From positions 62,001-126,000 of the forward strand of contig JAGWNK010000004.1 of assembly GCA_028871345.1 (NCBI GenBank): a DNA stretch of 64,000 nucleotides, read 5' to 3'. The stretch is from Alphaproteobacteria bacterium. GTDB lineage: Bacteria > Pseudomonadota > Alphaproteobacteria > Micropepsales > Micropepsaceae. Both the position numbers and the translations under genes were made by a program. Below the pieces are notes generated by a model. The model saw nothing but the letters and a program-made list of their open reading frames with translations, was not told the origin of the DNA and ran no database searches. The stretch's first letter is position 1. Every line of letters begins with the position of its first letter. Shown here piece by piece: positions 21,262 through 63,459 of this stretch.

Positions 21262-21367
21262 TGCCTTTGGCCGCTCCCCGGGCTGACTGGGAAAACCATT
21301 CTCAAGACGCTATGCAGACCCGCGTCCCGGCATGCTAACAAGTGCACGAACGAATACCCGGAAAGCC

Positions 21368-22516
21368 ATGGCTCGCGTTGCCGTCTTGATTGTCGCCGCA
21401 GGTAAAGGGGTCCGCGCCGGCGGCGGCGTTCCCAAGCAGTACGCGCCGGTCCTGGGCCAGCCGATGCTGCGCCGGTCGATCCTGGCCTTTGCCAACCTGG
21501 CCGACACGATCGTCCAGGTGGTGATCGGCGACGGCCAGGCGGACCGTTTCGCGGCCGCCGTGCGATGCCTCGATGTTCTGCCTCCCGTCGTGGGCGGCGC
21601 CGAACGGCAGGATTCGGTGCGGTGCGGGCTTGAGGCCCTTGAATCCAGAGCGCCCGAATTCGTTCTCATCCACGATGCGGCGCGACCGCTGGTATCGGCG
21701 GCGGTGATCGCCGGAGTTGTTGACGCCCTCGAAAAAGGCGCCGAGGCCGCCGTGCCGCTCCTGCCCGTGGCCGACACGCTGCGCAAGCGCGAAGGCGTGC
21801 GCTGGATCACAGTTCCGCGCGCGGGTCTGTTGCGCGCACAGACGCCGCAGGGCTTCCGCTTTTCCAGCATCCTGCGGGCGCATCGCGCCCACGCCGGCCA
21901 GAACGCCACCGACGACATGGCGCTGGCCGAGATCGCCGGCATCGCCGTGGTCGCCGTTGCCGGCGAGGAAACCAACATCAAAGTCACCAATGCAGAGGAT
22001 TTTGCCGTGGCCGAAGCTTTGCTGTCCGCTCGCGCCGGCGAGACCAGGATCGGATCGGGGTACGATGTGCACCGCTTCGTCGCGGGCGATCACGTCTGGC
22101 TGTGCGGCCTGAAGATCCCGCACGACCACGCGCTGGAAGGCCATTCCGATGCCGATGCGGGACTGCACGCCCTGACCGACGCGATCCTGGGCGCCATCGG
22201 CGAAGGCGATATCGGCCTACACTTTCCTCCCACCGACGAGCGCTGGCGCGGCGCGCCGTCCTGGAAATTCCTCAAGCACGCGGCCGATCTGCTGCGCGCC
22301 AAAGGCGGCAAACTGACGAATTGCGACGTCACTATCGTCTGCGAGAGGCCGAAGGTTTCCCCCCATCGCGACGCGATGCGCGCCCGCATCGCCGAAATTC
22401 TCGAGATCGACGCCGCGCGCGTCAGCGTCAAGGCGACGACCACGGAGGGCATGGGATTTACAGGGCGCCGCGAAGGCCTGGCGGCCGAAGCCGTCGTCAC
22501 GGTGCGCGTACCGTGA
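21368..22516 (+). CDS. ispDF: Bifunctional IspD/IspF (MEP pathway)
   Basis: The 382-residue fusion catalyses two steps of the non-mevalonate isoprenoid pathway: CTP transfer to 2-C-methylerythritol 4-phosphate (IspD, about residues 1-225) and formation of the 2,4-cyclodiphosphate (IspF, about 226-382). IspD shows AAGKGVRAGGGVPKQY and HDAARP. IspF shows the metal motif DVHRF, then EGHSDADAGLHALTDAILGA and HFPPTD. The ATG at 21368 follows GGAAAG. Fusion of these enzymes is typical of alphaproteobacteria. The stop overlaps pgpA by four bases. Confidence 0.97.
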   Translation: MARVAVLIVAAGKGVRAGGGVPKQYAPVLGQPMLRRSILAFANLADTIVQVVIGDGQADRFAAAVRCLDVLPPVVGGAERQDSVRCGLEALESRAPEFVLIHDAARPLVSAAVIAGVVDALEKGAEAAVPLLPVADTLRKREGVRWITVPRAGLLRAQTPQGFRFSSILRAHRAHAGQNATDDMALAEIAGIAVVAVAGEETNIKVTNAEDFAVAEALLSARAGETRIGSGYDVHRFVAGDHVWLCGLKIPHDHALEGHSDADAGLHALTDAILGAIGEGDIGLHFPPTDERWRGAPSWKFLKHAADLLRAKGGKLTNCDVTIVCERPKVSPHRDAMRARIAEILEIDAARVSVKATTTEGMGFTGRREGLAAEAVVTVRVP

Positions 22517-39563: not shown

Positions 39564-40697
39564 CTAGTTGGCAGCGACCGCCGGAACTTTGTCCCGTTCG
39601 GCTTCGATCTCGGCAGCCTTCTTCTCACAAAGCTCCACGACGTGTTCGACGAGATCCTTGTTGTCCAACCGGTACGACGGCACTCCGTTGAGGTAGACTT
39701 GGCCGTGGCCTTTGCCCGCTCCGCCCCCGGTGAATCCCAGATCCGTCTCACGCGCTTCGCCGGGCCCGTTGACGACGCAACCGATGATCGAGAGCGACAT
39801 CGGCGTGGTGATGTGCTTCAGGCGGTCTTCCAAGAGGCGCACTGTTTCTATGACATCAAAGCCCTGTCGCGCGCAGGACGGGCAGGAAACAATGTTCACG
39901 CCACGATGACGCAGGTTGAGCGACTTCAGGATGTCGAAACCGACACGGACCTCTTCCACCGGATCCGCCGATAATGAGACGCGGATCGTGTCTCCGATCC
40001 CGCTCCACAGAAGCATTCCCATGCCGATCGAGGATTTCACCGTGCCGGAGATCATCCCGCCCGCCTCGGTGATGCCCAGATGCAGGGGTGCGTCCGTCGC
40101 TTCCGCCAGCGCCTGGTACGCCGCCACGGCCAGGAAAGGGTCGGACGCCTTCACGGAAATCTTGTATTCGCGGAAGTCGTTGTCATCGAGGATCCTGGCG
40201 TGATCGAGAGCGCTCTCGACCATCGCTTCCGGGCACGGTTCGCCGTAGCGTTCAAGAAGGTCCTTCTCGAGTGAACCGGCGTTGACGCCGATCCGCATGG
40301 AACAGCCGTGATCCTTGGCCGCCTTGATGACGTCGCGGACCCGCGCCGCGCTGCCGATGTTGCCCGGATTGATGCGCAGACAGGCGGCGCCGGCTTCGGC
40401 TGCCTCGATGGCCCGCTTGTAGTGGAAATGGATGTCGGCAACGATGGGAATGTGCGCCGCTCGGCAGATCGTCTTCATCGCAGCGGTTGACTCTTCGTCG
40501 GGACAGGAGACGCGGACGATATCCGCACCGGCCTCTTCGACGCGGCGAATCTGATCGATGGTCGCCTTGGCATCGGCGGTCACCGTATTGGTCATGGTCT
40601 GCACGGTGATGGGGGCATCGCCGCCAACCGCCACGGGACCCACGTGAATCTGCCGCGACTTGCGCCTATGGATGTCGCGATACGCTCGAACGCTCAT
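39564..40697 (-). CDS. ispG: 4-hydroxy-3-methylbut-2-enyl diphosphate synthase (IspG)
   Basis: The 377-residue iron-sulfur enzyme converts the cyclodiphosphate made by IspF into HMBPP in the MEP pathway. Conserved blocks include [26 protein letters not shown] and [14 protein letters not shown], with the [4Fe-4S] cysteines of CPSC and [10 protein letters not shown] (about 310). Length matches short bacterial IspG. It lies between rodZ and the GT87-like gene on the same strand. Confidence 0.96.
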
Positions 40698-49093: not shown

Positions 49094-49942
49094 ATGACCA
49101 ACGGCCCGCCGCGGATTTTCGACAGGCATGCACAGGCGCTTCATCGAGCGCGAGCAAGTCGCAGAAACGGGGACCGGTTCCTCTGTGACGTTGCCATCGA
49201 CGGCCTGATGGCGCGTCTCGTTCCCGTGAACCGCAAATTCACGCGTGGCCTGGCGGTTCTTGGGGATGTGCCGGCGGCCCTGCGAAACCTTGCACCTGCC
49301 TGGCATACCGGCTTGCTGGATGACATGGATCGTCTCGACGTTGCCGACGGCGGCTTCGATCTCGCCGTCAGCGTACTGTGGCTGCACAGTGTCAATGACC
49401 TGCCCGGCGTGTTGGCACAGGTGAAACGCGCACTCAATCCCGACGGACTGTTCGCGGCCGCGATGTTCGGCGGCTCGACGCTCACCGAGCTCCGCGAATC
49501 GCTGGCCGCTGGCGAGATCGCGACGTTGGACGGGATCACGCCGCGGGTGGCGCCATTCGCCGATGTGCGGGAGCTGGGTACCCTCCTGCAACGGGCCGGC
49601 TTTGCCTTGCCGGTGGCTGATGTGGAGCGCACGACAGTTCGGTATCGCGCATTCAAGACCCTGGTGGACGACCTGCGGCTCATGGGAGAAACGAACGCAC
49701 TCGCCGGACGGCAGCGCACCTTGCGGCGCGACACGTTGCGGGCTGCGCTCGAGCGCTACGGGACCAAGCATTCCGACGAACAGGGCAAACTGCTCGCTAC
49801 CTTCGATATCGCCTATCTGATCGGCTGGTCGCCCCATGAATCGCAGCAGCAGCCACTGAGGCCCGGCAGCGCCAAGATGCGATTGGCGGATGCGCTGGGA
49901 ACCAGCGAACATCCCACCGGCGACAAGGCGCGCCCGCGCTAA
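49094..49942 (+). CDS. Methyltransferase-like protein (BioC/NDUFAF5 group), degenerate SAM motif
   Basis: The 282-residue protein resembles the alphaproteobacterial methyltransferases near comF that are related to BioC and mitochondrial NDUFAF5. It opens with IFDRHAQALHRARASRR. Motifs after the first are recognisable (FDLAVSVLWLHSVNDLPGVL in parts, then RALNPDGLFAAAMFGG, and TLVDDLRLMGETN). The glycine-rich motif I expected near residue 50 is replaced by RGLAVLGDVPAAL. Catalysis is therefore doubtful. It ends overlapping the cupin gene tail-to-tail. Confidence 0.8.
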   Translation: MTNGPPRIFDRHAQALHRARASRRNGDRFLCDVAIDGLMARLVPVNRKFTRGLAVLGDVPAALRNLAPAWHTGLLDDMDRLDVADGGFDLAVSVLWLHSVNDLPGVLAQVKRALNPDGLFAAAMFGGSTLTELRESLAAGEIATLDGITPRVAPFADVRELGTLLQRAGFALPVADVERTTVRYRAFKTLVDDLRLMGETNALAGRQRTLRRDTLRAALERYGTKHSDEQGKLLATFDIAYLIGWSPHESQQQPLRPGSAKMRLADALGTSEHPTGDKARPR

Positions 49943-50385
49943 CCGCCTTTCAGAAATGCCGCGACCGTTGGGATCGATTGGAGCGCTTTCAACTCGTCCA
50001 CCGTCGGCAGCGCCGGTCGATCACGATCGACATTGACCATGCAAAGAAAGCCCAGATGCGAGACCGGCTCTGCGCGAAATTGGTGCCAAGTCCAGGCCGG
50101 TATGGTCACCAGATCGTTGGCAGCGATATTGTAGACTTGGTCTCCAACCAGGCACGTCCCCGTGCCGCGCAGGATGAGGACCGCGTGCATGTGCTCGTGC
50201 CGTTCCAGTGTGGAATAGCCACCCGGTGAGACGTCGAAATACCGCAGCTCGGCATGCAAGGCCGGGTCGCAGAACAGCGTCTGCCGTGTGATGGCCTTGA
50301 AGGGCGCGCTGCCTTCCTCCTTGTAGGCGAGAAGATCGGTATTCTCCCAACGGAAGTTCTGGAACCTGCGGATGGGCTTTTCCAT
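49939..50385 (-). CDS. Cupin protein, candidate methylthioxylulose-phosphate lyase partner of the RuBisCO-like protein
   Basis: The 148-residue single-domain cupin has metal ligands in RHEHMH (His63, His65, possibly His67) and TWHQF (His101); the glutamate usual in motif 1 is not obvious. It begins five bases after the RuBisCO-like gene stop and is almost certainly co-transcribed. In Rhodospirillum rubrum a cupin works after the RuBisCO-like protein, removing methanethiol from 1-methylthioxylulose 5-phosphate to give 1-deoxyxylulose 5-phosphate. The same role is inferred here from adjacency and size. Confidence 0.75.
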   Translation of the reverse strand: MEKPIRRFQNFRWENTDLLAYKEEGSAPFKAITRQTLFCDPALHAELRYFDVSPGGYSTLERHEHMHAVLILRGTGTCLVGDQVYNIAANDLVTIPAWTWHQFRAEPVSHLGFLCMVNVDRDRPALPTVDELKALQSIPTVAAFLKGG

Positions 50386-50390
50386 CGACC

Positions 50391-51494
50391 TTACCCTTTC
50401 GCCGCGGCGCGCACGGCTTCGACGTAACGCGCCGTCTCCGCCGCGATGCGCTCGCGCGTCGACAACAGACTGCCGCCGATCAGAAGCATCACATCGGTGC
50501 CGAAGAAATTCAGCATTTCCGGGATGCGCTCCAAGAGCATGCCGCCGGCTGGTACCGGTACGCAGGGCTTGATGCCCGGCCAATCCTGGAGTGCGAAGCG
50601 GGAAAGAAGACCGCACTCCTCTGCGGTGTAGCCGAACCGCCCGCCGTAGTTAGCGAACACGGTGGCATCCGACCCCAGCATGCGGAACAGCTTTCCCAGC
50701 AGGAAGGACGGGCGGATGCGGGCCGTTCCGGACATCGTGGGATGGGTCATGAACGCGAAGTCGGGATTTTCCGTCACTAGCGTCTGGAACTGGGCCAGGC
50801 CCGCGATGAGGGGCGCGATGAGCACGCAGTCGAGACCGCAGGACCGCGCCAACCCAATCTGCCCTCGCATGGCGTCGAGGTTGCCATTGAGGCTGGGGAG
50901 GTAACGAGTGGGCACGCCCGTCCGGGCGGCACCCCTTGCCACGGCCTCGGCGATGGCGGGAACCCGCTCGGCATAGGGGCTGTAGAACTGGTTGGCGATG
51001 CCGTGGTCATCCTTGATGTAGTCAATCCCCCCCAGTGCGATGTCGCCCGCCAGCTTCGCCAGGAACGCCGCAGACGAGCCCTGGGGCTTCAGGGCCGTCG
51101 CTGTCAGCGCCCTGACGGGCGCCCTGAGCCGCTCGCGCAGGCCCGCCAGACCATGCCGCGGGCCGCCGAAAGCATCCGCAACTTCGGCCGGGAACTCGGC
51201 GTCCGCCAGCGTGACGTCGTCCTGCATGGAGGTATTGCCGATGATCATGTTGAGGAGCTGGCCGGCCTCAAGACCCGTGGTGATGGTGGCCAGGCCGATG
51301 CGGACGTCGAAAAGGCCATTGCCCTGGTCGTGGATGTCCTCGACGCGTCCAATGATCTGATCGATCACGAACGGATTACCGATCGGCTCGACGGGCATCT
51401 CGACGCTCTGTTCGACGGCGATGCCCTCGGCGCGCGCAGCAATGGATTTGGCGTCGCCGCGTACCAGATAGCGGACGTGAATGCGGCTGGTCAT
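50391..51494 (-). CDS. RuBisCO-like protein (form IV)
   Basis: The 367-residue protein has the RuBisCO large-subunit fold but altered catalytic positions. TALKPQG (Lys136) corresponds to Lys175. IDYIKDDHG (Lys161, Asp163, His164) corresponds to the carbamylated Lys201, Asp203 and Glu204, with His replacing Glu. AGG at 316-318 replaces SGG, and GGS at 340-342 replaces GGG. It therefore cannot be a normal carboxylase. Form IV proteins act on methylthio-sugar phosphates; the adjacent cupin suggests the R. rubrum type isomerase of 5-methylthioribulose 1-phosphate. No mtnA or mtnP gene lies in the window. Confidence 0.85.
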   Translation of the reverse strand: MTSRIHVRYLVRGDAKSIAARAEGIAVEQSVEMPVEPIGNPFVIDQIIGRVEDIHDQGNGLFDVRIGLATITTGLEAGQLLNMIIGNTSMQDDVTLADAEFPAEVADAFGGPRHGLAGLRERLRAPVRALTATALKPQGSSAAFLAKLAGDIALGGIDYIKDDHGIANQFYSPYAERVPAIAEAVARGAARTGVPTRYLPSLNGNLDAMRGQIGLARSCGLDCVLIAPLIAGLAQFQTLVTENPDFAFMTHPTMSGTARIRPSFLLGKLFRMLGSDATVFANYGGRFGYTAEECGLLSRFALQDWPGIKPCVPVPAGGMLLERIPEMLNFFGTDVMLLIGGSLLSTRERIAAETARYVEAVRAAAKG

Positions 51495-51537: not shown

Positions 51538-51762
51538 TCAGAACTTGATGCTAGCAAACATGGCGCTGACGTGCTCGCCGATCGCCCCGATCGAGGAGAA
51601 GATCACTAAGGCGATGAGGCTTGCCAACAACGCATATTCGATGGCGGTGGAGCCGTGCTCGTTGTGGCCCAGCTCGTCTACAGCAGGTCCCGCAGCATCG
51701 GGATCAGCGGGACGTCCGCCGGGGGCATGGGATAGTTCGACAAATCCTTCGGCCGCACCCAT
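51538..51762 (-). CDS. Flp-type pilin (isolated)
   Basis: The C-terminal 45 residues are a typical Flp pilin: leader end NEHG, cleavage before STAIEYALLASLIA with Glu at position 5 of the mature protein, then a hydrophobic helix and a short tail ending ASIKF. The start is unclear. The nearest ATG (51762) gives a 37-residue leader inside the nudix gene; a CTG at 51672 would give an ordinary seven-residue leader just after the nudix stop. No tad/cpa assembly gene is in the window. It lies 43 bases upstream of the RuBisCO-like gene. Confidence 0.65.
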   Translation of the reverse strand: MGAAEGFVELSHAPGGRPADPDAAGPAVDELGHNEHGSTAIEYALLASLIALVIFSSIGAIGEHVSAMFASIKF

Positions 51763-52085
51763 TTGATCTGCGCATGCTCCAGGGCCGACGGAATGCCTTC
51801 CCAACGGCGGCAGATGTAGAGCGGCATGAGCAAATGAAAGGCCTCGTAGCGATGGGACGCGAAGGTGAACGGCGCCAGGCAGGGCTCCTTCACTTCGATC
51901 CCAAGCTCCTCGCGGAGTTCCCGGATCAGCGTAGCCTCCGGACACTCCCCCCGCTCCATCTTGCCACCCGGAAATTCCCATAGACCCCCCATCTCCTTGT
52001 TTTCTGGCCTTTGGGCGATCAGGGTCCGCCCGTCAGGATCGATCAGGGCGCAGGCCGCCACGAAAACGAGCCTCGTCTGCGTCAT
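51678..52085 (-). CDS. mutT: Nudix hydrolase (8-oxo-dGTP diphosphatase, MutT-like)
   Basis: The 135-residue enzyme has a complete nudix box (GGKMERGECPEATLIRELREELGI, from about residue 38; key residues G38, E43, R52, E53, E56, E57 by pattern). MutT-like proteins hydrolyse 8-oxo-dGTP to prevent mutation. ATG at 52085 follows GGATGGAG. It is downstream of argJ on the same strand, the usual alphaproteobacterial order. Confidence 0.92.
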   Translation of the reverse strand: MTQTRLVFVAACALIDPDGRTLIAQRPENKEMGGLWEFPGGKMERGECPEATLIRELREELGIEVKEPCLAPFTFASHRYEAFHLLMPLYICRRWEGIPSALEHAQIKWVRPKDLSNYPMPPADVPLIPMLRDLL

Positions 52086-52220
52086 GTGATCGGCTCCATC
52101 CTGGGGCAGCCCTCTTAAGGTCCGTTTAAGAGATTCGTTCGGATTCGAAGGCAACCGATACTTGAGCCCGACCCGGGACGTCCCGCAACGGGGGCATTCC
52201 AAGACGGCTCGTCGGCGAGG

Positions 52221-53489
52221 CTAGCTGCGATAGCTGCCGTTGATGTCGATATAGCCGTGGGTCAGATCGCAGGTCCAGACCCGAGCCTTGCCCTTGCCCA
52301 AGTGCAGGGCGACCGCGATGTTCACTTCGAGCCCCGACACGGCTTTCGTTGCGGCAGCTTCGTCGTAACGTTTGGCGCGGTCGCCCTTCTCCGCCACCAG
52401 CACCTTGCCGAACTTGATCGAAAGCCTGTCGCGGTCGGCCTTTTCACCGGACTTGCCGACCGCCATCACGACGCGTCCCCAATTCGCATCATTTCCTGCG
52501 ATGGCCGTCTTGACCAGCGGCGAGTTCGCTATGGACAACGCAATGCGTTTGGCGGCGGCGTCATTGACCGCGCCCGTGATATCGATACGGATCAGCTTGC
52601 CCGCTCCCTCACCGTCGCGCACCACCTGCAGCGCCAGGTCCATCAGCACCTCATTCAGCTTGGCGCGAAAATCGTCGAGCCGCTTGTCGGCAGCCGTGGC
52701 GATGGAGGGATTGGCGGCCTGCCCGGTGGCAAACAACAGCAGCGTGTCGCTGGTGGACGTGTCGCTGTCGACCGTGATGGAGTTGAACGACGGCTTGACG
52801 CCTTCGGACAACAGCGTTTGGAGAACGCCGACCGAGAGCTTGGCATCGGTCGCCACGAAGGACAGCATCGTCGCCATGTCGGGTGCGATCATGCCCGAAC
52901 CTTTCGCCATGCCGTTGATAGTCACCGGCACGCCATCGATGCGCGCCTTGGCGGTCGCCATCTTGGGATAGGTGTCGGTCGTCATGATGGCGCGCGCGGC
53001 GCCTTCCCAGCCGTCCGGCCGGGCCGCAGCCGTCAAGCTCTTCAATATCCGGGTGATGCGCCCGGCGGGCAGCGGTTCCCCGATTACTCCTGTGGACGCG
53101 AGAAAAATTTCGCGAGGCCGACAGCCTATGGCCAGGGCGGCGGTCTCGGCGATATCGAGCGTACCCGCCTGCCCCGCGCGGCCGGTGAAGGCGTTGGCGT
53201 TGCCGCTGTTGATCACCAACCCGCGCGCTGCGCCTTTCTTCAGATGGGCCTTGCACCATTCGACCGGAGCCGAGGCCGTCTGCGACCGGGTAAAGACGCC
53301 CGCCACCTTGGTCCCCGGCGCCAAGACCGCCAGCATCACGTCGGTACGGTGCTTGTAGCGCACGCCGGCTTCACCGGCGGCCAGCCAGACGCCAGCCACG
53401 GCGGGCATCCTGGGCAATCGCTTGGGGGCCAGCGGTGAGACCATATGTGAGGACGTTTTCGCGGATTTCCGCGACCACTGCTGCGTCAT
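52221..53489 (-). CDS. argJ: Bifunctional glutamate N-acetyltransferase / amino-acid acetyltransferase ArgJ
   Basis: The 422-residue enzyme recycles acetyl groups in arginine synthesis, moving acetyl from N-acetylornithine to glutamate. It is processed by autocleavage before the Thr in [10 protein letters not shown] (about residue 213). Other blocks are [15 protein letters not shown] and [13 protein letters not shown] near the end. ATG at 53489 follows AGGGGAG. It is divergent from secA with a 150-base spacer. Confidence 0.96.
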
Positions 53490-61615: not shown

Positions 61616-63459
61616 TGCGCAGCGGCCGCGGGCTGTGGCGGCAACGGTGGTGGCGGGACGTATTCCGCAAGGGCCTCAAACGCCAGCCGCCGGGCGCCGT
61701 CGGCCAACCCCATGCTCTCAAGCAGGCGCACGAACTCGACCGTCACGTCGGGAGCCAGATCGCGTAGACCGACGCCATGCGCGGCATCAACAATGCGCAA
61801 CACCGCTTCTCCCCTGCGATCAGGACGCATGGCGGCCTGCTCTATGGTGCGCATGACCTGGGGTTCCGGACGCCGTCCATCCCACGATTGGGCCTCCAGA
61901 GATTGAACCTGCAGGCCTTGGGGCATGGAGCGTCCCAAGACATCGGCAAGTCCCAACAGAAGCGCCTTGTAGGAACGGTCGGGATCCGGGTCCGCCGGGT
62001 TCTTCATCAGCCCGGTTGCGAAGGCAATATAGGCGGCTTGCAGGCGCGGCTCATTTGCCGGGTCATTGGCCTCAAGATCCGCCACAGCCTGGAGCACGTC
62101 GCCATCCGGAACCCAACGTGCCGCAACACGGGGATCGCCGGCGAGCAGAAGGGCCCGTGCCAGCAGCCGCGCCAGCGCCGGGTCCGAGCGGTCGGGCTTT
62201 ACCGCGACAAGCAGATCGGACTGCAGATTGGCTGCCAACGGCAACAGGTGAGCTTTTTCGGCGATATTCATCGCTTCATAGACGAGTGCCGCTTTTGCAT
62301 CGGGACGCGGCTCGATCGTCGCGGCGCGACGAAGGACCATCTGCCCTGCAAAGAAGGGCAGCGTCGGCGCGTCAGTGGTCGCGTTTGCGACCTTGGTAAG
62401 TGGGATATCCTGCGCATCAGCGATCACGCGCAGATCGGCTGCAGGCACCGCTCCGATACGGGCCAGCCGTTCGGCTGCGGCCACGCGGGACTGGGGCGAA
62501 TTCTTGGAGTTGTGCAGGAGCACAGCGTCGGCCGCGGGACCCAGCTTCTGTGCCATGTCGGCAGGGATCGCCAGACCGGCCTGTTGCAGCAGGAACATGT
62601 GCATCGCCGTCGGTTCCGCGATGGCCGGAGGCGGATCGGCCTGATGATTGATGGCGTCGCTGTACAGGACCTCGAATGCAGGATCACCATCGCCCTGCGC
62701 GTCCAGCACTTGGCGTGTAAGATCGGCGGTCGGCTCGTCACCCGAGGATGCTGCGCAATAGGCGCGCAGCTCAAGCCAGAACGGATCGCCTTCCGTCAGG
62801 CGCGCCGAGGTGGCGTTGCCGCAGACGTCGCCCGCACGATTGGCAAACAGAAGGGCGTCCGCCTGCACGCGGGCGAATTCCATGTCGTTGACCACCGAAG
62901 CTTGGGCAGCGATAGCGCCGGCATCCTCGACCATACCGGCATCGAGCAGTTTGCGCAGGCGCATCGTGACGAAGGCATGCTTGGCCGATCCCGGTGGCGC
63001 GGCCGCCCTGGTCAATGCGACCTGCTTGACCAACGAACGCAGCGCCGGATCTGTAGAGGCCAGAGGTGCCCTCTGCAACAACGTTTCGACCGTGGCCTTT
63101 TCGGAACCGCTCCAGATCGTCTCATCCAGCCCGCCGTTCGCGGCGTCGAGCGTTCCCACCGGCGTGCCCTCGGCGGCGCCCAGAGATCCGACTTCCACAG
63201 CCGGCCCGACGGCGGGCAACGCCGTGGGCTCATCGGCGGGCGGCTGATTGAGGGAGCGGGGTCCTGAAGTCGCCTGGTCCTGTCCAGAATTGCCAGGCGG
63301 CGTGCCCTGCTGCGACGCCGGCGCATCTGCCACCGGCGGATAATCGTCGGGGCTCAGGACCGGCGGCTTGTCGCTTGACCATTGGGCCAAGAGAGGAGCT
63401 GCCAGCAGCGGCGCCGCGAGCGCCGCAAACACCAATCGCTTAAGTAGGGAATCGGTCAT
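61612..63459 (-). CDS. Exported Ala-rich helical-repeat protein, hypothetical
   Basis: The 615-residue protein has a signal peptide (about 1-25, cut near LLA|QWS), a Pro/Asp-rich low-complexity stretch (about 30-100), and then a long Ala/Leu-rich helical region resembling TPR or SEL1-like repeats with no clear consensus. It ends in a Pro-rich tail. It overlaps xerD by four bases and begins inside a 58-residue membrane protein gene. Genes of similar size and place occur next to xerD in related bacteria; the function is not defined. Confidence 0.75.

Follow-up and report, generated by a model that had tools for sequence, protein, structure and literature searches.

A 64,000-nucleotide stretch of an alphaproteobacterial genome of the family Micropepsaceae (assembly GCA_028871345.1, contig JAGWNK010000004.1, forward-strand positions 62,001 to 126,000), referred to here as the window, carries a gene for a form IV RuBisCO-like protein (RLP) together with a cupin gene. 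Judged by homology, there is little doubt that this pair constitutes the methylthioadenosine (MTA)-isoprenoid shunt of Rhodospirillum rubrum and Rhodopseudomonas palustris, with the activities predicted in Table 1. The original prediction for this DNA had proposed the same shunt as in R. rubrum, and it is supported by the likeness of the cupin to its R. rubrum counterpart, the clade of the RLP and the presence of MtnP and MtnA. The RLP stop codon and the cupin ATG are five bases apart on a common strand, as had also been stated; the open reading frame coordinates and the Pfam matches bear this out. The cupin frame is also open from a GTG at 50616, upstream of the chosen ATG, in the list of open reading frames.

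In the proposed route, MtnP would cleave MTA with phosphate, and MtnA would isomerise the product to 5-methylthioribulose-1-phosphate. The RLP would then isomerise this compound to 1-methylthio-xylulose-5-phosphate (MTXu-5P), plus some 1-methylthioribulose-5-phosphate. The cupin would remove the methylthio group with glutathione to give 1-deoxyxylulose-5-phosphate (DXP), which would join the DXS-made pool of the methylerythritol phosphate (MEP) pathway. We infer these reactions, their flux and the fate of methanethiol in the source organism; the orthology of the two proteins, their conserved pairing and the presence of MtnP, MtnA, DXS, IspDF and IspG can be read from sequence.

The cupin matches Pfam Cupin_2 at 45.1 bits against a cut-off of 27.2 (the scanned sequence had two additional codons at its start). 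It was compared with the R. rubrum cupin Rru_A2000 (PDB 3jzv), as the original prediction had advised, and 86 of 146 residues (58.9%, E 5.4e-54) were identical. On this alignment, the cupin is orthologous to the methylsulfurylase Rru_A2000. All 14 aligned cupins have His63, His65, His67, His101 and Cys115, and such histidines are presumably metal ligands. According to the accessible text of PMC4958253, Rru_A2000 is the MTXu-5P sulfurylase of R. rubrum.

The RLP matches Pfam RuBisCO_large at 73.8 bits (cut-off 30.1) and exceeds no NCBIfam cut-off. Its best NCBIfam match is the 2,3-diketo-5-methylthiopentyl-1-phosphate (DK-MTP-1-P) enolase model, at 132.6 bits against 409. The YkrW/MtnW enolase model TIGR03332 gives 91.5 bits against 513.6, and the model of bona fide RuBisCO, TIGR03326, gives 122 bits against 497.45; the motif is KDDH, not KDDE. 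The nearest solved relative is PDB 3qfw (phmmer E 5.8e-112), titled 'Crystal structure of Rubisco-like protein from Rhodopseudomonas palustris'. An AlphaFold2 model of the RLP (mean pLDDT 90.1) superposes on 3qfw with Z 49.0 and a root-mean-square deviation of 1.2 over 349 residues at 49% identity. Fold similarity is not sufficient to place the protein, because all 50 PDB matches listed score at least Z 40.5; only the step from 49.0 to the 43.1 of the second-ranked entry helps. R. palustris has two RLPs, namely RLP1 (DeepYkr, RPA2169, active on 5-methylthioribulose-1-phosphate, with the cupin RPA2170) and RLP2 (Photo), as described in the accessible part of PMC5893883. Because of this, and because PDB 2qyg is titled rlp2, 3qfw is taken as the RLP1 type and would be the active isomerase of R. 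palustris.

A maximum likelihood tree of 42 rows united the window RLP, 14 RLPs of sampled genomes, 10 of named records, one plasmid RLP and 3qfw in a single clade of 27 rows (support 96/99). A sister clade (98/92) comprised four RLPs at 35-38% identity, and the 11 far rows (RuBisCO, MtnW and others) fell outside (100/99), the three PDB rows consisting of aligned parts only, two of them partial, and MtnW being one partial row (2oek) on a long branch, a type of branch of which the programme warned. KDDH is found in all 27 rows of the RLP1-like clade and in all four sister rows, and KDDE in all 11 far rows. The original prediction would have been harmed by a grouping with some other form IV clade; the RLP grouped with 3qfw, and not with MtnW, RuBisCO or the sister clade, in a tree that includes the RLPs of Rhodospira and Roseospira and not that of R. 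rubrum. These results suggest that the RLP belongs to the DeepYkr clade, a name that depends on RLP1 being called DeepYkr in PMC5893883 and on 3qfw being RLP1.

The source genome (G000; 3.9 Mb, 113 contigs, 99.94% complete) contains a route to 5-methylthioribulose-1-phosphate, on which the original prediction depended. Both mtnP (NF006492, 498.3 bits, cut-off 437) and mtnA (TIGR00512, 405.3 bits, cut-off 279) lie near each other on contig C25, where mtnP, apt, a glutathione S-transferase (GST) gene, a small gene and mtnA occupy one strand (L016:5497-9544), and a single frame on the opposite strand separates mtnP from apt; apt was named by reading of the sequence, not by a family match. The genome holds no MtnK over the cut-off, the best match being partial (47.1 bits against 275), and MtnK is not required because the genome has the phosphorylase MtnP. 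DXS is present at 803.8 bits, and the RLP-cupin pair is therefore not the sole source of DXP. The MEP-pathway proteins looked for, DXS, IspDF and IspG, are all present; ispDF and ispG lie in the window above their NCBIfam cut-offs, in line with the original prediction. Of the genes it had named for a genome search, mtnP, mtnA and dxs were found and mtnK was not, at the family cut-off.

The pairing is conserved where such an RLP occurs. In a sample of 385 genomes of the class, where RLP1-positive means an RLP at >=51% identity, an RLP1-type RLP occurs in 15, the source genome included. The cupin adjoins it in 14 of these, and in the remaining one (G227) the contig ends there. A scan of named genomes covered the best 80 of 393 relatives and partly overlaps the class sample. 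The cupin lies downstream of the RLP on the same strand at 77 of the 80 loci, starting within 400 bases at 76 and about 1.4 kb away at L161. Two of the three loci without it are contig ends (L125 and L167), and L160, with 4 kb of downstream sequence present, is a true exception. No third conserved gene stood out beside the pair in 95 loci (with some repeats of a single record); after the pair, the most frequent family occurs in 17, in a survey made coarse by a gene caller that overlooked genes, including the cupin of the window. Neighbour families counted at 5 and 6 loci fell when each was checked individually, dxs to three near-identical loci and GST to four in addition to its query (one of these 25% identical). 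At those near-identical loci (L148, L151 and L157), dxs is on the strand opposite to the RLP, about 1.8 kb away. A 275-kb plasmid of Terrarubrum flagellatum (L199) carries an RLP1-type RLP and cupin followed by cysE, in keeping with the patchy distribution of the pair.

The RLP-cupin pair appears to be the only outlet for 5-methylthioribulose-1-phosphate that could be recognised in the source genome. Its two class II aldolase (PF00596) genes encode a generic family member (NF005451) and an AraD beside a ribulokinase gene, and neither qualifies as MtnB or Ald2. Acireductone dioxygenase (ARD, MtnD) has no match in the source genome; it exceeds the cut-off in none of the 15 RLP1-positive and in 5 of 15 RLP1-negative genomes, with matches below the cut-off in G123, G081, G367 and G004. 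Close relatives back the single-outlet reading only partly. Genome G387 (L106), whose RLP is 80% identical to that of the window, has no class II aldolase match. Surroundings of mtnA were examined at 41 loci: that of the source genome, those of 11 other RLP1-positive genomes (G200, G231 and G367 are missing) and a non-random set of 29 others from the best mtnA matches. An aldolase or a short-chain dehydrogenase (SDR) stands beside mtnA in 11 of the 12 RLP1-positive genomes: four loci have an Ald2-like gene, four an aldolase-SDR fusion (that of G292 cut by the contig end) and three an SDR-like gene, and the source genome has none. The 29 other loci comprise eight with Ald2, six with the fusion within about 110 bases, three with the fusion 0.6-1.8 kb away and 12 with none.

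The fusion of a class II aldolase with an SDR is an observation in its own right. At 10 of the 41 loci it adjoins mtnA on the same strand, and at three more it is within 2 kb. In the congener G140 it scores 1098 bits on NF006192 against a cut-off of 639. It could be the aldolase of the dihydroxyacetone phosphate (DHAP) shunt joined to an enzyme for methylthioacetaldehyde. A literature search on mtnA-linked aldolase/SDR fusions found no paper.

The following observations weigh against the proposed shunt or its standing as a single outlet. The source genome has no O-acetylhomoserine sulfhydrylase match at E 1e-60. The pair is patchy within the genus, being found in two of five sampled members (G000 and G140) and not in G004, G239 and G320. 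Furthermore, G385 and G386 (L104 and L105), which have the next closest RLPs, show five and two class II aldolase matches, unsorted by subfamily, some in frames of about 700 codons. With regard to the patchiness, the RLP of G140 groups with RLPs of another family (96/91), apart from that of the window. The patchiness and this grouping suggest transfer or loss.

The missing sulfhydrylase bears on the purpose of the route. In R. rubrum, O-acetylhomoserine sulfhydrylase regenerates methionine, as given in the accessible text of PMC4958253. It exceeds the cut-off in 13 of the 14 other RLP1-positive genomes, G227 having a weaker match only. The source genome has four full-length members of the same pyridoxal phosphate family: a cystathionine beta-lyase, a cystathionine gamma-synthase, one protein over no cut-off and the O-succinylhomoserine sulfhydrylase MetZ on contig C26 (TIGR01325, 532.5 bits, cut-off 510.05). 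MetZ is the nearest candidate, with 347 bits on the O-acetylhomoserine sulfhydrylase model against 495. The same chemistry might serve mainly to dispose of MTA, with methanethiol lost and DXP as a by-product. This alternative concerns purpose, is compatible with the favoured mechanism and is a serious possibility, though we lean somewhat the other way. DXS is present and would cover isoprenoids, no O-acetylhomoserine sulfhydrylase exceeds the cut-off, and methanethiol formation from MTA in R. palustris is apparently a general housekeeping function (PMC5893883, accessible part). However, MetZ might take up methanethiol, and R. rubrum growing on MTA represses dxs while the shunt feeds isoprenoids, according to the accessible text of PMC4334135.

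The remaining alternatives concern the substrate and the reaction of the RLP. It might act on another compound, for example 5-deoxyribulose-1-phosphate derived from 5'-deoxyadenosine, with the cupin acting on its product. The DHAP shunt is reported to handle both MTA and 5'-deoxyadenosine (PMC10986504, accessible part), but the ortholog of the cupin removes a methylthio group (PMC4334135, likewise) and the cupin accompanies the RLP at nearly all named loci, which makes a different substrate very improbable. The RLP as the YkrW/MtnW enolase of the Bacillus pathway has next to no chance of being correct. The enolase model is its best NCBIfam match, yet the score lies far under the cut-off, the MtnW row 2oek falls outside the RLP clade (as one partial row on a long branch), ARD is lacking and MtnB is not among the two class II aldolase genes. 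The MTA-isoprenoid shunt remains the preferred explanation.

The GST gene on C25 was considered for the sulfur end of the shunt. The thiol of the R. rubrum route is released as a glutathione adduct; on MTA the GST Rru_A0332 of that species is up 3.7-fold, and a GST was suggested to form the adduct (PMC4334135, accessible text). Of five sampled congeners in the genus of the window, four (G000, G140, G004 and G239) have a GST gene placed between apt and mtnA, and G320 does not. It does not track the shunt, because G004 and G239 have the GST and no RLP. Among the 41 mtnA loci, a GST like that of C25 was found in this genus only, RLP-negative members included. GST genes are common in general. L099 (where the protein exceeds the GstA cut-off) and L101 have a GST-like gene immediately following the cupin, and L130, L131, L133 and L149 have one at a distance of about 2-2.7 kb from the RLP. 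It is unlikely that the lineage depends solely on the RLP-cupin pair for MTA salvage, lacking the aldolase route that runs in parallel in R. palustris, and also uses the GST between apt and mtnA to handle the methylthio-glutathione of the cupin. In the accessible parts of the published accounts, the handling of methylthio-glutathione appears as proposals only.

The features of the window and the comparison loci are listed in Table 1. The BioC-like and cupin genes overlap by four bases where they end. In the interval that separates the RLP from the MutT-like gene, a short minus-strand frame (51538-51700) resembles a Flp-type pilin peptide by eye and has no NCBIfam match. No RNA element was found upstream of the pair; Rfam at the gathering threshold over the whole window gave one tRNA.

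Table 1. Features of the window and loci used for comparison
Feature	Position or locus	Strand	Remarks
RLP gene	50391-51494	minus	367 aa; DeepYkr/RLP1 type (probable); predicted 5-methylthioribulose-1-phosphate 1,3-isomerase; stop codon ends at 50391
Cupin gene	49939-50385	minus	148 aa; predicted 1-methylthio-xylulose-5-phosphate methylsulfurylase; ATG at 50385, stop ends at 49939
ispDF	21332-22516	plus	NF006899 451.7 bits, cut-off 417; context, outside operon; MEP pathway downstream of DXP
ispG	39564-40697	minus	TIGR00612 452.7 bits, cut-off 280.25; context; MEP pathway
MutT-like Nudix gene	51678-52202	minus	upstream of RLP; TIGR00586 89 bits, below cut-off 97.9
argJ	52221-53489	minus	upstream of RLP
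BioC-like methyltransferase gene	49094-49942	plus	pointing towards the pair; 78.9 bits, below cut-off 184.95
ComF/GntX-like gene	beyond BioC-like gene		below its cut-offs
Aldolase/SDR fusion loci	L049:4070-6190; mtnA loci of G087, G292, G370, G239, G295, G365, G373, G210, G203		
Sister-clade RLP loci	L200, L201, L240, L241, L242 (plasmids), L102 (G344), L103 (G202)		

The sister RLP clade has a different gene order. In seven of eight loci examined, its RLP follows two genes that together resemble transketolase or DXS; mtnA is present in six and mtnK in five. The RLP stands behind mtnA and mtnK on plasmids of Shinella, Pararhizobium, Agrobacterium, Rhizobium rosettiformans and Ensifer (mainly Rhizobiaceae); G202 has mtnA only, and the stretch of G344 has neither. 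The eighth locus of this type (L243) has an unannotated stretch between mtnA and the RLP. Four of the seven loci were assigned to the clade by the tree and three by identity (36-37%). No cupin was found near the RLP in the seven loci (by tblastn in three and by annotation alone in four), which include the available stretches of the two 35-38% RLPs of the class sample (G344 and G202). This gene order suggests a thiamine diphosphate (ThDP) enzyme in the place of the cupin, acting on the RLP product. One may speculate that a ThDP enzyme replaces the cupin in an undescribed methylthioribulose route. A literature search found no paper with both an RLP and a transketolase in a methylthioribose or mtn context, and the sister clade with its split transketolase may be more novel than the pair of the window.

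The shunt itself has been published for R. rubrum and R. palustris (PMC4958253, PMC5893883 and PMC4334135, each in its accessible part), and the source pair is very probably a well-conserved member of this described pathway rather than a new system. In the accessible text of PMC10663253, both shunt enzymes were sought only in genomes lacking Dxs, and both were present in 5 of 181. A search of open-licence papers on Rhizomicrobium and methionine salvage found none. With the present pair, a sulfur and isoprenoid salvage route that is already characterised would reach the lineage of the source genome; judged by the RLP, the nearest named isolate is Rhizomicrobium electricum. The source genome might also allow a test of the route free of the aldolase bypass that operates in R. 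palustris. If the sulfhydrylase is truly missing, the question of the destination of methanethiol is raised.

The system resembles the R. rubrum shunt (Rru_A1998 RLP and Rru_A2000 cupin) in its orthologous cupin, an RLP of the same clade type, MtnP with MtnA, and DXS, IspDF and IspG. It differs in that the tags A1998 and A2000 are non-consecutive, whereas only five bases separate the genes here, and in that the source genome lacks an O-acetylhomoserine sulfhydrylase over the cut-off. It shares with R. palustris an RLP 49% identical to 3qfw, and the RLP and cupin tags are consecutive there (RPA2169 and RPA2170). In contrast, R. palustris also runs the Ald2 DHAP shunt (PMC5893883, accessible part), and Ald2 was not found in the source genome; the DHAP shunt differs in the same way, since an Ald2-type class II aldolase is missing there (two PF00596 genes, neither Ald2-like). 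The Bacillus-type MtnW/YkrW enolase is similar in fold and in its role in methionine salvage, but belongs to another clade with the KDDE motif and other partners. The sister clade is likewise an RLP with KDDH and lies near mtnA; it is 35-38% identical, has no cupin seen and has a two-gene transketolase/DXS-like pair instead, whereas the window RLP is surrounded by the cupin, the BioC-like and MutT-like genes and argJ, with no transketolase halves.
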